The notes under the pieces are model-generated. The model was not told the DNA's origin. It ran no database searches and was given only the letters and a program-made list of their open reading frames with translations. Of a stretch of DNA of 41,216 bases, positions 2,716-41,216 are shown piece after piece. How positions within the stretch are numbered: position 1 is the stretch's first letter; each line of letters opens with the position of its first letter. Source of the stretch: a virus; the IMG/VR virus record IMGVR_UViG_3300003319_000250, positions 1 to 41,216 of that record; one strand, 5' to 3'. The position numbers were made by a program, and so were the translations under genes.

Positions 2716-3681
2716 ATGAAAACAAAACTATTTCTTATTTCAATCTTCATTACCAATATGTGTTTGGCGCAAATTCAGGTTTCTCCTACCTATATAACCC
2801 CACCATCTACCTGTAATTCTTGCGATGGGAAGGCTAAGCTACAAGTGTATTCATCTGCAAGTGGCCAGTTGTCATTGGTTTGGTCCGGCGGCACTATGGA
2901 TGCGGATCAAGTGAGTCGAAAAAACATGTGCTGGGGGGTATATAACATATCGATTACTGATGGTGCGGGGAATAGTAAGGAGGTTTTCATAAAACAGGGT
3001 TGCAACCCAGCTAACTTTTCTGCATTTTCCTTTTATTACGAAAACCCGTCTGCCTGCTCTACTTATGATGGCCGAATATTGACTTATTCCAATTATAATA
3101 ACTATCCGTATACATACAAATGGAGCAACGGAAGTACATCATCTCAATTATATGATCTTTGCGCTGGAAAATATAATGTCACAATTACAGATTCTAAGTC
3201 TAGCACTTATACAACAGAGATAAGATTAAATGAAAAACCAGCGGCCACTCCAACACTAACCATTTCCGGCTCTACGATTACTTCCACCCCAGCCACTTCT
3301 TACCAATGGTACATGAACAGCACTGAAATAAACGGAGCTACAAACCAAAGCATAACAGCTATTACAACTGGTACATACGAAGTAAGGATAACAGACACCA
3401 GCTCATGCAGTGCTTTTGGGTCAGTATATTGGGTAGCCCCTACTACTGGCATTAAGGAGCTACAGGTGTCAGGTATGATTTCGCCAAATCCTGCTACTGA
3501 TCATCTATTAATAAAAACAGGCACTCCACAATCGCTGATCATCTATTCAGTAACAGGGCAAGCGGTGATCAATCAGGTCGTAAGAGATCAGGAAGTTGTT
3601 TCTTTGTCCGAATTCCTACCCGGGGTATATTTATACCGCCTGGGAGATAATAAGCCTCAGAAATTCATTATAAATAGGTAA
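2716..3681 (+). CDS. T9SS-exported surface protein with SprB-like repeats
   Basis: 321 residues. Signal peptide 1-19 (ends CLAQ). Residues about 30-175 contain two Cys-containing repeats of SprB-like pattern (CxxCDGKAKL...WSGG...GVYNISITDG; CSTYDGRI...WSNGST...GKYNVTITDS). The last about 75 residues are a type A T9SS sorting domain (ISPNPATDHLLI, IYSVTGQAV, LPGVYLYRLGD, KFIINR). Known family role: export across the outer membrane and attachment or release at the surface. It is the last gene before a terminator in the repressor operon, so it is probably made in lysogens and displayed on the host. It is a moron-type gene. Confidence 0.85.
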   Translation: MKTKLFLISIFITNMCLAQIQVSPTYITPPSTCNSCDGKAKLQVYSSASGQLSLVWSGGTMDADQVSRKNMCWGVYNISITDGAGNSKEVFIKQGCNPANFSAFSFYYENPSACSTYDGRILTYSNYNNYPYTYKWSNGSTSSQLYDLCAGKYNVTITDSKSSTYTTEIRLNEKPAATPTLTISGSTITSTPATSYQWYMNSTEINGATNQSITAITTGTYEVRITDTSSCSAFGSVYWVAPTTGIKELQVSGMISPNPATDHLLIKTGTPQSLIIYSVTGQAVINQVVRDQEVVSLSEFLPGVYLYRLGDNKPQKFIINR

Positions 3682-4463: not shown

Positions 4464-5055
4464 AAAGCCGACGGCTCCACCTGCGGCTGACCTACCAGCC
4501 GCAGAGAAGCCAAAGAGAAACGGAGCCCCAAAGGGCAATGAGTTCTGGAAGCTACGTTCTAAGCACGGGTGTGATAAGTTATTCGCAAGTCCTGAATTAC
4601 TTTGGGAGGCAGCCTGCGAATATTTCCAATGGTGTATAGACAATCCCTTAATTGAAGTAGACTATAAAGGTAAAGACGCCAAGAAAGTTCGAGTACCTAA
4701 AATGCGCCCTTTCACTTTAGGCGGACTTGCTCTATACTGTCATGCGCATACTCTTTATTTCACTCAATTTAAGGACGATTTAAAGAAAAAAGACGATAAA
4801 ACCTCAAGAGCTTTCTACGAGGTCGTTACACGCATATACGATACAATCTACCAGCAGAAGTTTGAAGGTGCAGCCGCTGGCTTTTTAAACCCCAATATTA
4901 TAGCACGTGATTTAGGCCTTGTTGAAAAAACCGAGTCAAAAGCAAACGTTACCATCGAAGAAGAGATCGACTACGAGCAGCTCAGCACAGAAGCCCTCAG
5001 AGAAATTGCCCAGGCTAAGCGCCACAAAGGCAATGGCGGAGCTGTGCAGGCGTAG
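4447..5055 (+). CDS. Terminase small subunit
   Basis: 202 residues from ATG 4447 (a GTG at 4411 is the alternative). Lys/Pro/Ala-rich N-terminus, then a helical region resembling phage gp3-type DNA-packaging small subunits (FWKLRSKHGC, PELLWEAACEYFQWC, TLGGLALYCHA, FNPNI-like end), and an acidic C-terminus. Immediately followed, with 23-base overlap, by the large subunit. It recognises phage DNA and regulates the packaging motor. The call rests on position and general pattern. Confidence 0.75.
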   Translation: MAKQAKKPTAPPAADLPAAEKPKRNGAPKGNEFWKLRSKHGCDKLFASPELLWEAACEYFQWCIDNPLIEVDYKGKDAKKVRVPKMRPFTLGGLALYCHAHTLYFTQFKDDLKKKDDKTSRAFYEVVTRIYDTIYQQKFEGAAAGFLNPNIIARDLGLVEKTESKANVTIEEEIDYEQLSTEALREIAQAKRHKGNGGAVQA

Positions 5056-6409
5056 TTACTATGATTTCTTCCTTGAGTTTTGGGACGAGGTAAACACAGA
5101 GCCGCTTGTCCCAAACTGGCATATTAAATATCTGTGCGACCAATTACAGGCGGTTGTTTTTCGTTTACGGGACCGCTTGCCAACGGAGGGTGATATTATC
5201 GTGAATATCCCTCCAGGGTCTTCAAAGTCAAATATCTGCACAATACTACTCCCAGCCTGGGCATGGGCAGTTGATCCTACACTCAGGGTTCTTTCCAGCT
5301 CCTACTCGGATATCCTGGCTACCGAGCATGCGGTGAAGAGCCGGGATATTATCATGTCTGCAAAGTTCAAGGAGTATTTTTCAAGCATTCAGATACGAAG
5401 GGATAAGAACAATAAGACCAATTACGAAAATCAGTTTGGTGGCCAACGCATTGTTTCATCTGTTGGTGGTACAGCTACCGGTATGCACGCCCATTTGCTC
5501 ATTGTAGACGACCCTATAAACCCCAAAAGAGCACAGAGCGAGCCGGAAAGACAATCGGCCAACGAATATATGACTCAGACACTCTCTACCCGTAAGGTAG
5601 ATAAGGCTGTTTCTACCACTATCCTGGTAATGCAGCGCCTACATACTAAAGATCCTACTGGCGAAATGCTCAAAAGGAAGAAGGTTAAGCACTATTGCTT
5701 TCCTGCAGAACTGAGTCAGGATACTTCACCGGAAGAGGTAAAAGCGTTTTATCAGAATGGATTGCTGGACCCTAACCGTATGCCTAAATCTGTACTGGAT
5801 AATATGAAAGTAGATTTGGGTAGCTATGGTTATTCAGGTCAGATGCAGCAAAGGCCAACGCCAGAAGGCGGCGGTATATTAAAAAGCACCTGGCTTACAC
5901 TGATAGACCATAAGCCGCCAGGCAAGGTAGATTTCTTTATTGACGGAGCTTTTACAGACAAAACCTACAACGATCCAACGGCTATTCTAGTAACAATGGA
6001 GCACAGGAAGGACGTGTACATAACAAACTCTATCACCAAGCACCTGGAGCTATATGAGCTGGTTAAATACATAAAAGACCTTGCAAGGGCCACGCCGGAC
6101 TTTGGCCCTTCATCACTGATCCACATTGAAGAAAAAGCCAGCGGATTGGGCATAAAAAGCCTATTGAGAAAGGAAGGATTCAACGTTGTGGCTGTTGATC
6201 CTAAGTTCGTAGCAGAAGGCAAGATAGCCAGGGCGTATGCAACTGCACCAGCTATGGAAGCTGGCAGGGTGAAATGCGTAAAAGGTCAATGGAATGAGAT
6301 ATTCTTCCAAGAAATAGACGCCTTTCCCAATGGAGAGAACGACGACCAGGTTGATAATTTAACAGCAGCTGTTAATAGGTACACGAAACCCGGATTAATT
6401 TATATGTAA
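5033..6409 (+). CDS. terL: Terminase large subunit (packaging ATPase and nuclease)
   Basis: 458 residues from ATG 5033, overlapping TerS. Motor domain: Walker A-like PPGSSKS at about 60-66 and Walker B LLIVDD at 155-160. RNase H-fold nuclease domain: first acidic residue Asp304 (FFIDGAF), Glu366 (HIEEKASG) and the Asp437-Asp438 pair (NDDQVDN). This is the complete two-domain terminase that pumps DNA into the procapsid and cuts the concatemer. The frame is open for 38 codons upstream but lacks an ATG there. A hairpin follows the stop. Confidence 0.95.
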   Translation: MAELCRRSYYDFFLEFWDEVNTEPLVPNWHIKYLCDQLQAVVFRLRDRLPTEGDIIVNIPPGSSKSNICTILLPAWAWAVDPTLRVLSSSYSDILATEHAVKSRDIIMSAKFKEYFSSIQIRRDKNNKTNYENQFGGQRIVSSVGGTATGMHAHLLIVDDPINPKRAQSEPERQSANEYMTQTLSTRKVDKAVSTTILVMQRLHTKDPTGEMLKRKKVKHYCFPAELSQDTSPEEVKAFYQNGLLDPNRMPKSVLDNMKVDLGSYGYSGQMQQRPTPEGGGILKSTWLTLIDHKPPGKVDFFIDGAFTDKTYNDPTAILVTMEHRKDVYITNSITKHLELYELVKYIKDLARATPDFGPSSLIHIEEKASGLGIKSLLRKEGFNVVAVDPKFVAEGKIARAYATAPAMEAGRVKCVKGQWNEIFFQEIDAFPNGENDDQVDNLTAAVNRYTKPGLIYM

Positions 6410-31111: not shown

Positions 31112-31209
31112 TTAAGCCAATTTGCATTTATTCGTATCAGTTCAAATAATTTATTTAAAATGTAAACTGTACTGTAAACCGGTTACATTTGTCATGTAAA
31201 CCGCTAGGC

Positions 31210-32418
31210 ATGGCTAAAGTTACGGCAATACTTTATATAAGCAAGACATTGAGCAACGGAGAGCATCCTGTTATGATTCGTGTTTCAGAAGGGGCTGACC
31301 GCAAGTACTTTTCTTTTGGTTACTCGGCTGCTCCTGACCAGTGGAAGGATGGGCAATTTAGCAGTAAGAGGCCTAACCACCGTGCGCTCAATATGCTTCT
31401 TAGGGACAAGCTCAATGAGTACGAAGGCAGGGCGATACAGGCAGAATCAGAAGGCAAGAGCGCATTGCTGGAAATCAAGAAGCCTAAAAGATCAAAAAAC
31501 ATCTACGACTTTATTGATCTGCATGTTGATCGACTAAAGAAGGCTGGCAGGCATGGCAACGCAAACGCTTACAGCATTCTTAAAAACATTCTGCAAAAGC
31601 AGCATTCTGGAGACAAGCTGACATACAAGGAGATTGATACGGCCTTTTTAAACAATATGCTCACCTGGCTTCGGGCAAAGAAAGGGCCTTACGGGTCTCC
31701 CCTCTCCCCTAATACCATTAACACCTACTTTGCTAAACTGAACAGTGTGTTTGAAAAAGCGGCCGCCGAAGATTATATCTCTAAATCTGACAACCCCATC
31801 CTTTCCTGGTCAATACCAAAAACCCAGAAGGGTAAAAAGGTGCATCTGACCCAGGATAATCTAAAAGACCTGCGTAAATTTCCACTTGCCAAGCAAAGTC
31901 CGGCATGGCATTGTAGGAACTACTTTCTTTTCCAATACAATTGCCTTGGTATGCGCATAGGCGATGTAATTATAATGAGAAGGAAAGCTGTTATTGGTGA
32001 CGAAATGGAATACAGAATGGGTAAAACGGGTGATCTTTTCCGTTTCAAACTTAGCCCAGAGGCGAAAAAGATACTTTCGTATTATATCACCCCTGAAATG
32101 AAGCCTGATGATTTTGTTTTCCCAATAGCAGACAGAAAGGAATACGAGGCTGTGGAAGACAAGAAAAGGTTTATTGATAATAGAATCGGGGCTATTAATA
32201 AACAGTTGCGACACTTGGGCAAGCTGCTGGGGTTGAATAGCAACCTTACAACACACATAGCGAGACACACTTTTGCATCAAACGTGGACAGGAAATTGAA
32301 AGATCCTAGAATGATGCAAAAGCTACTGGGGCATAAAAAGCTAGAAACATCTGTTGGTTATGCCGGAAGTTTGCATAATGATGATGTAGATGCCGCAATA
32401 AAAAAGTTGTATAAATAA
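31210..32418 (+). CDS. int: Tyrosine recombinase integrase
   Basis: 402 residues from ATG 31210 (a TTG at 31189 is also in frame). N-terminal arm-binding domain and SAM-like core-binding domain (about 95-195), then the catalytic domain with Arg249 (CLGMRIGD), His349 and Arg352 (THIARHTFA), His375 (LLGHKK) and nucleophile Tyr384 (SVGYAG). Complete catalytic set. It integrates and excises the phage at the att site. TGTAAACC repeats lie just upstream of and across the start. Converges with the Xis-like gene with no gap. Confidence 0.95.
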   Translation: MAKVTAILYISKTLSNGEHPVMIRVSEGADRKYFSFGYSAAPDQWKDGQFSSKRPNHRALNMLLRDKLNEYEGRAIQAESEGKSALLEIKKPKRSKNIYDFIDLHVDRLKKAGRHGNANAYSILKNILQKQHSGDKLTYKEIDTAFLNNMLTWLRAKKGPYGSPLSPNTINTYFAKLNSVFEKAAAEDYISKSDNPILSWSIPKTQKGKKVHLTQDNLKDLRKFPLAKQSPAWHCRNYFLFQYNCLGMRIGDVIIMRRKAVIGDEMEYRMGKTGDLFRFKLSPEAKKILSYYITPEMKPDDFVFPIADRKEYEAVEDKKRFIDNRIGAINKQLRHLGKLLGLNSNLTTHIARHTFASNVDRKLKDPRMMQKLLGHKKLETSVGYAGSLHNDDVDAAIKKLYK

Positions 32419-37554: not shown

Positions 37555-38397
37555 TTACCCTCTTCTGTCTGGTGCGTCCGAGGGGAATGCGACCATGTTT
37601 ACCATTTCTCTTAACCTTGATCTTACTCGGTTTCCGTAAAGCGTATCAACCTCGTCAGAGATTATATTTGTGGTTATGTGTGTTCGTCCTTTAAGCAAAG
37701 GATGGTCGTACCTAGCTAGAATAATGTCGGCCATTACGTTCAGATCGTCTCCGTAGTGCTTTTTCATTTCCTCAGTTCCCAGGTCGTCAAAGCAAGCGCC
37801 TAGCTTATTATGACCGAACATGTTTGTTGCATTCGGTATTTCTCCGTAGTATTTGTTTATACCTGAAATGCCTTCTTTGCTATAATCTGAGGCTACCTTT
37901 CGGCAATTATAAACTGAGTAGCTTCCAACATGATTGTCCCTGAAAAGCTTCATGAAAACAGTTTTCCCGCACCCTACATTTCCATGTAACCACAATCCCT
38001 TTTTCAACGAATACCCCTCTCCCTTCTTTTCAAATTCTGGATTGCCAGAGAAGTATAGACAGAGCAGTTCGAATATTTCCTTGTTGTATTTATCCAAATC
38101 AAACTTTCCATATTCACGAATGGCTTTTTGTGTGATGAAATCCGCAACCTGATCGCTGGTTAAAATCCTTGTGCCTTTATTTTGAACAGCATTAACTTTA
38201 TCCCAGTAAGCCTTTTGCGCCAACTCGTAGTATCTTTTCTCTTTGAACCTATAAATTGCCTCTGCTTTCTCTTCTTCAGTAAGCTCAACTGAGTCTATTT
38301 CTTTAAACCTAGAGTTTGCCGGGATCGCGCCCAGGGATTGCGGTAAGTCTGTTTTGGCCTGTTCCATTAAGCTGCTTAGTTTGGGTATTTCTGTCAT
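37555..38397 (-). CDS. DnaC-like helicase loader ATPase
   Basis: 280 residues, AAA+: Walker A GNVGCGKT (139-146), Walker B ACFDDLG (201-207), sensor THITTN (239-244) and a likely arginine finger in GNRVRSRLREM (255-265). The N-terminal about 130 residues probably contact helicase or initiator. Overlaps the initiator gene by 89 bases, giving an O/P-like pair that loads the host replicative helicase at the phage origin. Confidence 0.88.
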   Translation of the reverse strand: MTEIPKLSSLMEQAKTDLPQSLGAIPANSRFKEIDSVELTEEEKAEAIYRFKEKRYYELAQKAYWDKVNAVQNKGTRILTSDQVADFITQKAIREYGKFDLDKYNKEIFELLCLYFSGNPEFEKKGEGYSLKKGLWLHGNVGCGKTVFMKLFRDNHVGSYSVYNCRKVASDYSKEGISGINKYYGEIPNATNMFGHNKLGACFDDLGTEEMKKHYGDDLNVMADIILARYDHPLLKGRTHITTNIISDEVDTLYGNRVRSRLREMVNMVAFPSDAPDRRG

Positions 38398-39115
38398 GTT
38401 TTAGGTATGGTATAGTGTTAAGTATTTTAGACTTCCAGTTTTTTATAGGGCTTCCGTTTCCATCTTTCCACCCATTATCAATCCATTGTAATCTTTTGGC
38501 CTTTAAGGAGAATTCTAATCCTTGGTATGTGTCAGGTATTTGCTCCTTGCAGTAGGCTAAAAACTCAGCCTCTTCTGGAATATCTTTTTTTACATCTTTA
38601 CCTACATCTACATTTGCACTTTCATCTTTATTTATATCTACTATATGCTTAAGCATAGCTTCAAGCATAGGTATAAGCATAGCTTTGTTTTTTTCTTCGA
38701 AATCGTTAATTATTTTTAGCTTCTCTTCGTTGTTAAATTCCTTTAGCCATGTAAATAATTTCAGATAATCTTTCGCATTTAATTCTGCCTTTGCTTTTTT
38801 GAAAAACTGTCCTACACGACCGTTTAAGGCTTGTTTTTCAGAAAATTCTTTCCTCTCTTCCATAACATCGCTTAGTTTCTGGTTATACCAACCCTTATCG
38901 CATAGCTTAAACTTAGCTTCAAGGGTAGCTTCAAGGGTAGCTTTAGCTATGCCTCCACAATAAAGAAGCAACCTTTTAGTGTCTGTGGGTATAAAGCCAT
39001 GCTGATGTTGGTATATCATCAAATCAATGAAGCAGGCCCTTTCTTCCGGCAACATCATTCTTGTTCCTTCATAAAATGCTTTACTGTAAAATAGAAATGC
39101 TGGGTCTTTTGCCAT
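38309..39115 (-). CDS. Replication initiator with origin iterons in the gene
   Basis: 268 residues. The N-terminal about 110 residues (KDPAFLFYSKAFYEG, EERACFIDLMIYQHQHG, LSDVMEERKEFSEKQALNGR) match the DUF1376-like winged-helix replication proteins. The C-terminal part has LEFSLKAKRLQWIDNGW and KNWKSKILNTIPYL, as in phage initiator/DnaD-type proteins. Located upstream of the helicase loader. The gene holds two clusters of 12-bp repeats, seen in the protein as ATLEATLEA and AMLIPMLEAML. Confidence 0.75.
   Translation of the reverse strand: MAKDPAFLFYSKAFYEGTRMMLPEERACFIDLMIYQHQHGFIPTDTKRLLLYCGGIAKATLEATLEAKFKLCDKGWYNQKLSDVMEERKEFSEKQALNGRVGQFFKKAKAELNAKDYLKLFTWLKEFNNEEKLKIINDFEEKNKAMLIPMLEAMLKHIVDINKDESANVDVGKDVKKDIPEEAEFLAYCKEQIPDTYQGLEFSLKAKRLQWIDNGWKDGNGSPIKNWKSKILNTIPYLKHDRNTQTKQLNGTGQNRLTAIPGRDPGKL
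38644..38686. repeat. Iteron cluster 1 (candidate replication origin)
   Basis: AAGCATAG at 38651, 38663 and 38675, an exact 12-bp period, preceded by TATGCTT, so 38644-38657 is a perfect 14-bp palindrome (TATGCTTAAGCATA). It lies inside the initiator gene in an AT-rich stretch. Confidence 0.6.
38902..38950. repeat. Iteron cluster 2 (candidate replication origin)
   Basis: TAGCTTC/TAGCTTT at 38914, 38926 and 38938 (12-bp period), with AAGGG between copies, and a related TAGCTTA at 38903. It shares TAGCTTCAAG with cluster 1 (38656-38665), 250 bp away. Confidence 0.55.
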
Positions 39116-39290: not shown

Positions 39291-39581
39291 TTACGTGAAC
39301 ATTAACCTTTCGTCTTCTTGAACAATTGTAGTATTAAATGGAAAGTCTGTTTTTGGGACATGCTGTATCATGTCGATCAATACCTTTGATCCAGTGAATA
39401 GAATGTGGTTTGTTCCATCAACTGAAATTTGCAGGTACAGACATTTTCCATCAAATTTTGAGTCTTCAACACTGAAATCGTGAACAACTATTTGCCCGTT
39501 CAGTATCTTCTTTATTTTGATTTTGTCGCCTGTGAACCTGGAGACGGATGTTTTTATTCCGAAGTCCTTAAAGTTTTTCAT
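39291..39581 (-). CDS. RT-adjacent small protein, OB-like pattern
   Basis: 96 residues overlapping the reverse transcriptase stop by 14 bases. Strand-rich core (GDKIKIKKILNGQIVVHDF, CLYLQISVDGTNHILFTGS) and a terminal segment FNTTIVQEDERL. It could be a small OB-fold nucleic-acid-binding protein, but this is pattern-level only. It does not resemble the four-helix Avd accessory protein of other DGRs. Confidence 0.5.
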   Translation of the reverse strand: MKNFKDFGIKTSVSRFTGDKIKIKKILNGQIVVHDFSVEDSKFDGKCLYLQISVDGTNHILFTGSKVLIDMIQHVPKTDFPFNTTIVQEDERLMFT

Positions 39582-40524
39582 GTAGTTTTCTTACCAGGTT
39601 AATACTGTTACAGTGTGTTGTCCATCCGTTGTATGCGGCTATGGATTCTCTGTTAGGTCCTTTTTTTAGCATCCGTGCATATCGCTGTTTGATGCTTTTT
39701 CTCAATAAAGTGTGAGTGTGGTAGAAACGATAGCCAACGAAGTCAATGCCGCGATCTGCTACCGGAAATACTTGATAGTTTTCTTTTATTGTCAGCTTTA
39801 GCTTTTCGCCCAGATAAATTCTAATGTCAAATAATAGACTGTGAAGCTCTTCCTTGTTCCCTGAAAGTATTACCAGGTCGTCTGCATAACGGAAGTAGTA
39901 TTTTACTTTCTTCTCTTCCTTAAGCCAGTGATCGAAATAGCTCAAATAGAAGTTGGCGAAGTATTGACTTAGGTAGTTTCCGATAGGAACACCTGGCGCG
40001 CTGTCAATTATTTCGTCAAGCAACCATAATAGGTCAGCGTCTTTAAATTTCCTTCTTAGAAGCCCTTTTAGAATGTCATGGTCAATGTTTGGGTAGAACT
40101 TCTTAATGTCCAGCTTCAAACAATACTGAGTACTTGTAACATCTTTTAAGGCGTTTTTAACAGAACATGCAGCTGCATGTATACCTTTTCCTTTTATGCA
40201 GCTATATGTGTCTGCTGTGAAGGTTTTAACAAATATTGGTTCCAGAATATTCAGGATAGCATGGTGCGTAATCCTATCAGGATAATAAGGCAAACGAAAT
40301 ACATCCCTTTCCTTCGGCTCAAACACTTTAAATGTGCTGTACTCAGAAGTGCAGTAGGTTTTATTAACAAGCATATGCTGGAGTGCAATTATGTTGGCAC
40401 TCTGATTTTTCAGGTGCAATTGCACTCCGTATTGATTTGTTTTACCCCTCATGGCTTTTTGGTCAGCCAGGATAAGATTATCAACACTGCATACCTTGCT
40501 ATATAAGTTTCCTATTCGTTTCAT
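39568..40524 (-). CDS. DGR reverse transcriptase
   Basis: 318 residues, typical DGR RT length. Palm motifs: LKLDIKKFY (136-144, Asp139), IGNYLSQ (181-187, the DGR-type motif in place of the QG of retroviral/group II RTs) and FRYADD (211-216, catalytic Asp215-Asp216), followed by DFVGYRF (261-267). No maturase or RNase H domain. It lies just downstream of a template repeat with two variable-repeat target genes upstream, completing a DGR. It copies TR RNA with errors at adenines into cDNA that replaces VR sequence. Confidence 0.95.
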   Translation of the reverse strand: MKRIGNLYSKVCSVDNLILADQKAMRGKTNQYGVQLHLKNQSANIIALQHMLVNKTYCTSEYSTFKVFEPKERDVFRLPYYPDRITHHAILNILEPIFVKTFTADTYSCIKGKGIHAAACSVKNALKDVTSTQYCLKLDIKKFYPNIDHDILKGLLRRKFKDADLLWLLDEIIDSAPGVPIGNYLSQYFANFYLSYFDHWLKEEKKVKYYFRYADDLVILSGNKEELHSLLFDIRIYLGEKLKLTIKENYQVFPVADRGIDFVGYRFYHTHTLLRKSIKQRYARMLKKGPNRESIAAYNGWTTHCNSINLVRKLHEKL

Positions 40525-40619
40525 TTGCTTAGATTAAAGTCTTCTTCTTTTAGATACCAAAGCCTTCTTTCATTAATTTGTTTTCTGGATTGTTACCAAG
40601 GTCTGTGTCGGGAAAAATT

Positions 40620-40693
40620 AAACAGAGCTGCGAGCTGACATTCGTATTCGTGTTCTGGTTATCGTAGTCGTTGTACGACAAGCCGGAACTGGA
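40620..40693 (-). repeat. DGR template repeat (TR)
   Basis: 74 bp, read on the minus strand, between target gene 1 and the RT gene. It holds 20 adenines, concentrated in AAC, AAT, CAG and AGC/AGT codons, and is the presumed RNA donor. Alignment with VR1 gives 13 substitutions at TR adenines and 2 others (positions 69 and 72). Confidence 0.93.
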
Positions 40694-40729
40694 AGAAGCC
40701 CAAAATATCCAACACACCACCCGTTTTAA

Positions 40730-41113
40730 TTACTCGCTGTATAACATGTAATCCTGATACAGCTTGTTATACACATTGCCCACGTGTTCGGCTAAGTCTC
40801 TCGTTTTCAAGCAAAGCCGCGAGCCGACACACGTATGCGTGCGCCGGTAATCGTAGCCGACGTACGACAAGCCGGAACCGGAGGGAGTGGCTTCATCTGC
40901 CTCTACCCTGAACCATGGATAGTATTTATATTCGTTCCAGTCATTCCAATTTGGTTTCCATCCATCATTGTGAGCTTCACAAACAATCATTAGTTGATAA
41001 GCTGCTTTGATGGCGTTCTGGTGTCTTTCCGGAAGCATTGAAACATCTGGTAGTGCGTTAGGATCTAAGCCCATTGCCGCAAAACATTCTTCTACTGTGT
41101 TGTACTTTTTCAT
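40730..41113 (-). CDS. DGR target protein 1 (variable protein)
   Basis: 127 residues. N-terminal part (VEECFAAMGLDP, AIKAAYQLMIVCEAHNDGW, KYYPWF) and C-terminal VGSRLCLKTRDLAEHVGNVY match the DGR target family common in Bacteroidota phages, presumed C-type-lectin-like fold. VR covers residues 78-102. Variable positions relative to TR: 79, 85, 86, 89, 90, 91, 93, 95, 97, 99. No signal peptide. Starts 3 bases after target gene 2. Ligand unknown; it may act in the virion or inside the cell. Confidence 0.9.
   Translation of the reverse strand: MKKYNTVEECFAAMGLDPNALPDVSMLPERHQNAIKAAYQLMIVCEAHNDGWKPNWNDWNEYKYYPWFRVEADEATPSGSGLSYVGYDYRRTHTCVGSRLCLKTRDLAEHVGNVYNKLYQDYMLYSE
40739..40772. repeat. Nested inverted repeats downstream of VR1
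   Basis: GTATAACA (40739-40746) with TGTTATAC (40765-40772), and an overlapping pair GCTGTAT (40736-40742) with ATACAGC (40757-40763). They lie about 37 bp beyond the VR 3' end, where DGRs often carry a hairpin or cruciform important for homing, and here fall in the last codons of the target gene. Confidence 0.5.
40809..40882 (-). repeat. DGR variable repeat 1 (VR1)
   Basis: 74 bp near the 3' end of target gene 1, aligned without gaps to the TR. Thirteen of 20 TR adenines are replaced, spread over G, T and C. The last bases differ from TR at two non-adenine positions (CTTTGCTT against CTCTGTTT), the expected IMH/IMH* boundary. Confidence 0.93.
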
Positions 41114-41116
41114 ATG

Positions 41117-41216
41117 TTATTTTTTGATGATAAACATTTGCGTGTATTCTGGTTTGAACTGCTTTCCGGCATATTCAGCGAGTTCTGAGGTCTTGAAGCA
41201 AAGCCGCGAGCCGACA
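41117..41216 (-). CDS. DGR target protein 2, 5' part outside window
   Basis: Last 32 codons visible, stop at 41117-41119. It reads VGSRLCFKTSELAEYAGKQF and then a charged end, the same C-terminal family motif as target 1. Three bases separate it from target gene 1. The VR lies at the window edge, so this is a second, tandem DGR target. Confidence 0.85.
   Translation of the reverse strand, partial: VGSRLCFKTSELAEYAGKQFKPEYTQMFIIKK
41196..41216 (-). repeat. DGR variable repeat 2 (VR2), 3' end only
   Basis: The 21 visible bases are identical to VR1 over the same positions, including G at the two TR adenine sites and the CTTTGCTT boundary. The more variable part lies beyond the window. Confidence 0.8.

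Follow-up and report, generated by a model that had tools for sequence, protein, structure and literature searches.

A phage diversity-generating retroelement with two tandem target genes and its short-TR relatives in Bacteroidota

Introduction

The diversity-generating retroelement (DGR) of BPP-1 consists of mtd, avd, TR and brt, with a TR of 134 bp and a spacer of 144 nt between TR and the reverse transcriptase (RT) gene. Avd, an inverted repeat following VR and a C-lectin target are features of the BPP-1 type and not of all DGRs. The BPP-1 spacer is a structured RNA that recruits bRT-Avd and provides the adenine used for priming (PMC12875486). Mapping of the context dependence of the BPP-1 RT in E. 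coli revealed raised G misincorporation in NAC contexts, and the text of that study describes no fixed outcome for C-A-G (PMC12875486). Avd has been reported absent from many DGRs, for example those of most Zeta crAss-like phages (PMC12386605), and C-lectin folds were found to be systematic in annotated VR domains, with divergent variants expected (Roux et al., PMC8144416).

Several VRs were present in about a seventh of the DGRs collected in DiGReF (PMC3521204), and a later survey counted 28.6% multi-VR DGRs, mostly with a single TR (PMC6642488). Two-target gut phages have also been published, namely nd4/nd12 with tentaclin (PMC10743442) and the Bacuni phages (PMC8143477), the latter having Avd. 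In both cases one TR corresponds to two VRs in two genes.

We analysed the entire IMG/VR record IMGVR_UViG_3300003319_000250, a linear stretch of 41,216 bp referred to here as the window, at the right end of which a DGR with two tandem target genes had been predicted. The locus resembles the BPP-1 DGR in its homologous RT, the target-TR-spacer-RT order, the adenine-only TR/VR differences in the repeat body and the difference of the IMH/IMH* type at the 3' end. Unlike BPP-1, it has a TR of only 74 bp, a spacer of 95 nt, two tandem targets, 28 codons after VR and an own partner ORF after the RT gene. It also differs in following the C-A-G rule described below and in belonging to a lineage with no GRNA hairpin after VR, and no Avd was recognised in the interval from target to TR.

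The closest likeness was found to short-TR DGRs of Bacteroidota phages and prophages (most of the loci L002-L145, and L158), whose RTs are up to 74% identical. These share the order target 2, target 1, TR, spacer, RT and partner ORF with the same spacing and differ in individual sequences only, except that some carry 3 or 4 VRs and others have one target at a distance. The targets of nd4/nd12 and Bacuni are C-lectin proteins of different architecture, whereas those of the present phage are short tandem paralogues. The DGRs of crAss-like phages (e.g. cr55_1, Suoliviridae) have RTs 60% identical to the present one, and the VR end (...CGSRL) is weakly matched; there, the annotated gene beside the RT in which the match occurs encodes one long protein (572 aa), and the matching part is its extreme C-terminus.

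Results

Organisation of the cassette

All parts of the cassette were encoded on the minus strand, in the coding-direction order of truncated target gene 2, target gene 1, TR, spacer, RT and a 96-aa ORF. The RT with its YADD and IGNYLSQ motifs, TR, VR1 and the end of VR2 were all located at the predicted positions. Target gene 2 was represented by its 3' end (41117..41216), terminating in ...VGSRLCFKTSELAEYAGKQFKPEYTQMFIIKK*, and its stop codon at 41117 precedes the start codon (ATG) of target gene 1 by 3 bp; the gene is truncated because the whole record is linear and ends at 41,216. Target gene 1 (40730..41113, 127 aa) belonged to the phrog_11581 family (E 7.7e-19), for which function is unassigned, and contained VR1 (40809..40882) in frame as codons 78-101. 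TR (40620..40693) was followed by the spacer (40525..40619), the RT gene (39568..40524, 318 aa) and the 96-aa ORF (39291..39581), which overlapped the RT stop by 14 nt and matched phrog_19665 (E 2.3e-8).

Other genes of the window provided context. A Por secretion-system C-terminal sorting domain in a phage gene at 2716-3681 (E 2.8e-8) indicated a Bacteroidota host, and an S24-type repressor (1023-1769), a tyrosine integrase (31189-32418) and a terminase (4919-6409) indicated a temperate tailed phage. Imperfect 12-nt repeats (AAGCATAGCTTC-like) were clustered at 38635-38698 and 38905-38956, within a primosome-like gene (38309-39115).

Comparison of TR and VR1

The gapless 74-bp alignment of TR and VR1 gave 15 differences. 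As predicted, 13 of these were located at TR adenines, of which TR has 20, and the other two (C>T at 40625 and T>C at 40622) in the last six bases. The proportion at adenines (13/15, 87%) exceeded the value of at least 75% used for recognition of DGRs, and the bias was highly significant (hypergeometric P = 6.2e-8). When the comparison was reversed with VR as the template, 0 differences fell at VR A, which makes the TR-to-VR direction clear. The bias was also seen among relatives, taken from the 80 top viral and 80 top genome matches of the RT: in 91 non-redundant cassettes with 186 VRs, 2374 of 2426 mismatches (97.9%) were at TR A. These three results supported the predicted adenine-specific mutagenic retrohoming.

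The two differences near the 3' end agree with the IMH/IMH* divergence that DGRs are expected to show. In the relatives, the VR 3' end was strongly conserved (e.g. +2 C in 97% and +3 C in 99%), and TR departed from it at the fixed positions -6, +1 and +5. This conserved stretch presumably functions as IMH. As about 28 codons follow VR, the presumed IMH lies inside the coding sequence.

Reverse transcriptase, spacer RNA and partner ORF

IGNYLSQ conforms to the GxxxSQ motif of DGR RTs. The RT matched Pfam RVT_1 (E 3.6e-17) and phrog_1423 (E 5.6e-121), and its nearest PDB match was 8ub7 (E 8.5e-52), the aligned sequence of which is the same stretch as BPP-1 Brt; group II-type RTs came next (1.7e-17). 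In the phylogenetic tree, it was placed inside a Bacteroidota set and together with the RTs of BPP-1, hankyphage, Toutatis and crAss phages, well separated from those of group II and Javan5 (SH-aLRT 100), with the finer placement unsure owing to the long branches of BPP-1, p00 and Toutatis. The PDB search and the tree thus agreed in assigning the RT to the DGR clade, outside of which it would have spoken against the original prediction. We have very little doubt that the element is a phage-borne DGR.

The spacer contained two hairpins common to 46 aligned relatives, hairpin 1 at about 40585-40599 and hairpin 2 at about 40537-40566, the latter with an invariant GUA/GAA internal loop that we take to resemble the sarcin-ricin (loop E) motif. 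Compensatory changes were detected in 12 of 14 pairs, and the covariation score was 0.584, against 0.206 +/- 0.016 for shuffled alignments and at most 0.119 for slid ones. The single-sequence fold of TR and spacer of the present phage was not better than shuffles (z -0.15). Rfam contained no family for the spacer, and a mir-305 match was rejected as a chance hit. In view of the role of the BPP-1 spacer, the same role is likely for the present one by analogy.

The phrog_19665 family consists of proteins of 96-103 aa, the genes of which usually begin inside the RT gene, some 14 nt ahead of its stop. A member was found within 1.2 kb after the RT gene in 110 of 115 short-TR cassettes. A search with this family alone identified 78 new loci (L318-L395), and the RT gene was directly upstream in all of them (78/78), demonstrating that the ORF is an obligate neighbour of the RT. 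The long-TR lineage had a weak homologue farther 3' of the RT, and another adjoined the RT of an archaeal virus. No Avd-like Pfam match was obtained among the window ORFs scanned, the region upstream of target 2 being missing from the record, and there was no room for Avd between target 1 and RT. Because many DGRs reportedly lack Avd, this negative result does not exclude DGR membership. The phrog_19665 ORF is a candidate accessory factor of DGRs without recognised Avd.

A group of Bacteroidales loci (L109-L130) had a longer TR (114-119 bp). Most of them had one target only, and the small gene directly 3' of the RT was a different one.

Target proteins and the region after VR

The targets gave no Pfam match, and their structure models matched neither PDB entries nor the C-lectin fold. 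Mean pLDDT of the two models was 85 and 89, with about 53-68 in VR; apart from VR, where prediction was poor, the models were mainly helical. As divergent C-lectin variants are to be expected (PMC8144416), the targets may still have such a fold. A relationship of target 1 to Mtd was considered and rejected, as profile comparison showed none. The targets are probably small phage proteins used in binding. Inspection of the sequences after VR detected GRNA-loop stems of at least 7 bp in 0 of 186 VRs, without excess over shuffles. The same script found the hairpin in BPP-1 and in 11 of 49 VRs of its relatives, and in 0 of the hankyphage- and Faecalibacterium-type DGRs.

Fixed outcome at C-A-G adenines

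The TR adenines of the clade were divided into two classes. Most were converted to mixtures of A, C, G and T in the VRs, while adenines in the context C-A-G-(C/G/T) became G in 98-100% of VRs. In short-TR cassettes, the G outcome was observed in 123/126 cases for CAGC, 143/146 for CAGG and 144/146 for CAGT, and in long-TR cassettes in 41/41, including close Firmicutes relatives (14/14); inheritance of sites lowers the number of independent cases in these counts. The rule is not a general property of DGRs, as A was retained in 31/40 cases in the Faecalibacterium type and in 6/11 in the BPP-1 type.

In the present phage, 40690, 40636 and 40629 were in C-A-G-(C/T) contexts. The original prediction counted ten diversified codons in target 1. 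Ten codons, and ten residues, indeed differed between TR and VR1, but since three of the 13 adenine changes belonged to the C-A-G class, the stochastic part was reduced to 10 changes in 7 codons.

We tentatively interpret the change of C-A-G to G as miscoding with a fixed, context-dependent outcome, due to the RT of this clade or to its RNA. The rule may instead have nothing to do with the RT, its sites lying outside the copied tract in the IMH or arms, or being selected for glycine or arginine, a reading which is compatible with the DGR explanation. Two of the main sites, -6 and +1, are indeed located in the VR 3' end beside the IMH, -54/-60 encode glycine in VR, and many C-A-G sites are inherited. 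Silent positions argued against this reading. At third positions of the short-TR lineage, to which the silent-site evidence belongs because codon phase is uncertain in the long-TR lineage and its counts were not used, silent CAG was changed to G in 97/98 cases, and other silent adenines gave a mixture (G17 A11 T9 C4). Silent sites thus behave like the others, and for them selection for Gly/Arg is no explanation. Offset -61, which in most members corresponds to the third position of a serine codon, pointed in the same direction. When TR had A at this offset, VR had G in 72/75 cases, and when TR had C, G or T, VR was equal to TR in 111/111 (58, 37 and 16, respectively); the state at this offset changed 21 times along the RT tree. 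The exact match at C, G and T indicated that the position is copied. An explanation of the fixed A-to-G sites merely as IMH or as lying outside the copied tract thus failed at silent 5' and mid-tract sites. Furthermore, other adenines within the same flanks were mixed, and C-A-G-G inside the tract of the long-TR lineage gave G in 17/17 cases. We give the explanation without the RT somewhat less than an even chance. The combined proposal, that the CAG[CGT] adenine is nearly always written as G and that the phrog_19665 partner replaces Avd, is held tentatively, at just short of an even chance.

In NAC contexts, for which raised G misincorporation by the BPP-1 RT has been described, few C (3%) were found in the VRs of the present clade.

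Two targets sharing one TR

The visible part of VR2, its last 21 bp (41196..41216), matched the end of VR1 at every position and ran in frame into a 28-residue tail. Its 19-bp core had 0 expected occurrences in 100 shuffles. The fragment alone cannot show diversification, because its two TR adenines belong to the invariant C-A-G class. Searches of viral contigs with the TR/VR pattern of the present phage gave no match, and those with the target 2 end pattern found no second contig of this phage. As target 2 is incomplete and no second contig is available, diversification of VR2 in the present phage is argued from its relatives.

Two to four VRs matching one TR were present in 101 of the 104 comparable cassettes (those of the short-TR type in which 1.3 kb or more of sequence precedes the RT), and the second VR was in tandem in 95. 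One template for two proteins is therefore not unusual, being the norm in the short-TR lineage, and the predicted pair of targets on one TR was supported through these relatives. The gap between target 2 and target 1 was usually 2-12 nt, and the tail after VR had the same length as here, about 28 codons. Target 2 (median 154 aa) was longer than target 1 (129 aa) because of an N-terminal extension. The two targets for the most part fell into separate families according to position, with 34 label changes against 68 after shuffling, indicating that the tandem arrangement is old and not a recent duplication.

Near-identical pairs of relatives revealed recent changes. Between L002 and L082, in which TR, the compared RT stretch and the 150 nt upstream of each VR were identical, VR1 was changed at 10/20 and VR2 at 11/20 TR adenines, with changes elsewhere at 0/56 and 0/60, respectively. 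VR2 alone was changed between L011 and L015 (11/20 TR adenines), VR1 between L053 and L056 (12/22, with VR2 unchanged), and VR3 alone between L053 and L054 (13/19). Since VR1, VR2 or VR3 changed separately, the targets were rewritten independently. These pairs served as a counterpart of the read mapping proposed with the original prediction, and the variation at TR adenines was a favourable outcome. The mutated fraction of core adenines in the 186 VRs was 0.634 for VR1, 0.609 for VR2 and 0.607 for VR3. Within a genome, VR1 and VR2 were nearly independent, with an identity of 0.350 compared to the expected 0.326 +/- 0.012. By extension from these relatives, the element of the present phage is probably active.

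An extra or second target was located about 3-5.5 kb from the cassette in L063, L065, L071, L074, L042 and L046, and these remote targets had adenine-only differences from the same TR.

The possibility of a DGR with one live target, in which target 2 would be a decayed or static paralogue sharing merely the VR end, derives from the 21 visible bp of VR2, all identical to VR1. It was hard to reconcile with the 101/104 cassettes, in which mismatches were near-exclusively at adenines, or with VR2 being mutated as much as VR1 and changing alone in L011/L015. In the present phage, the reading frame of target 2 remained open as far as its natural stop, giving the same tail of 28 residues. We consider a single live target very improbable. 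Ordinary divergence of duplicates by gene duplication and selection, with no retrohoming and an RT unrelated to the repeats, would agree with the paralogy of targets 1 and 2 (hhalign probability 100), but it is refuted by the 97.9% adenine bias, is opposed by the exact reproduction of TR C, G and T at silent third positions (111/111 at offset -61) and by the RT belonging to the DGR clade, and retains a practically negligible probability.

Discussion

A mechanism can be proposed for the two-target DGR. TR and spacer would be transcribed, and the spacer RNA would fold and present TR to the RT, probably assisted by the small overlapping partner protein. TR would carry the variant IMH*, and each target would be hit independently.

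The use of several targets per TR is already published, and the present element joins a large lineage of Bacteroidota phages. No earlier description of the C-A-G outcome, the partner ORF or the covarying spacer was found in the DGR literature compared, the 2018 accessory-gene survey being outside this comparison. The specialist interest is in these lineage-level features: the C-A-G outcome, the obligate partner ORF and the covarying spacer. If the C-A-G outcome is a property of the RT, adenines of fixed outcome could be designed into templates for targeted protein diversification. The comparison with relatives is of more consequence than the element itself. It provides natural TR/VR pairs by the hundreds, and their silent sites allow the behaviour of the RT to be told apart from selection. 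It also points to a clear candidate for an accessory protein where DGRs have no recognised Avd, and shows that spacer RNA structure is conserved in a lineage distant from BPP-1.
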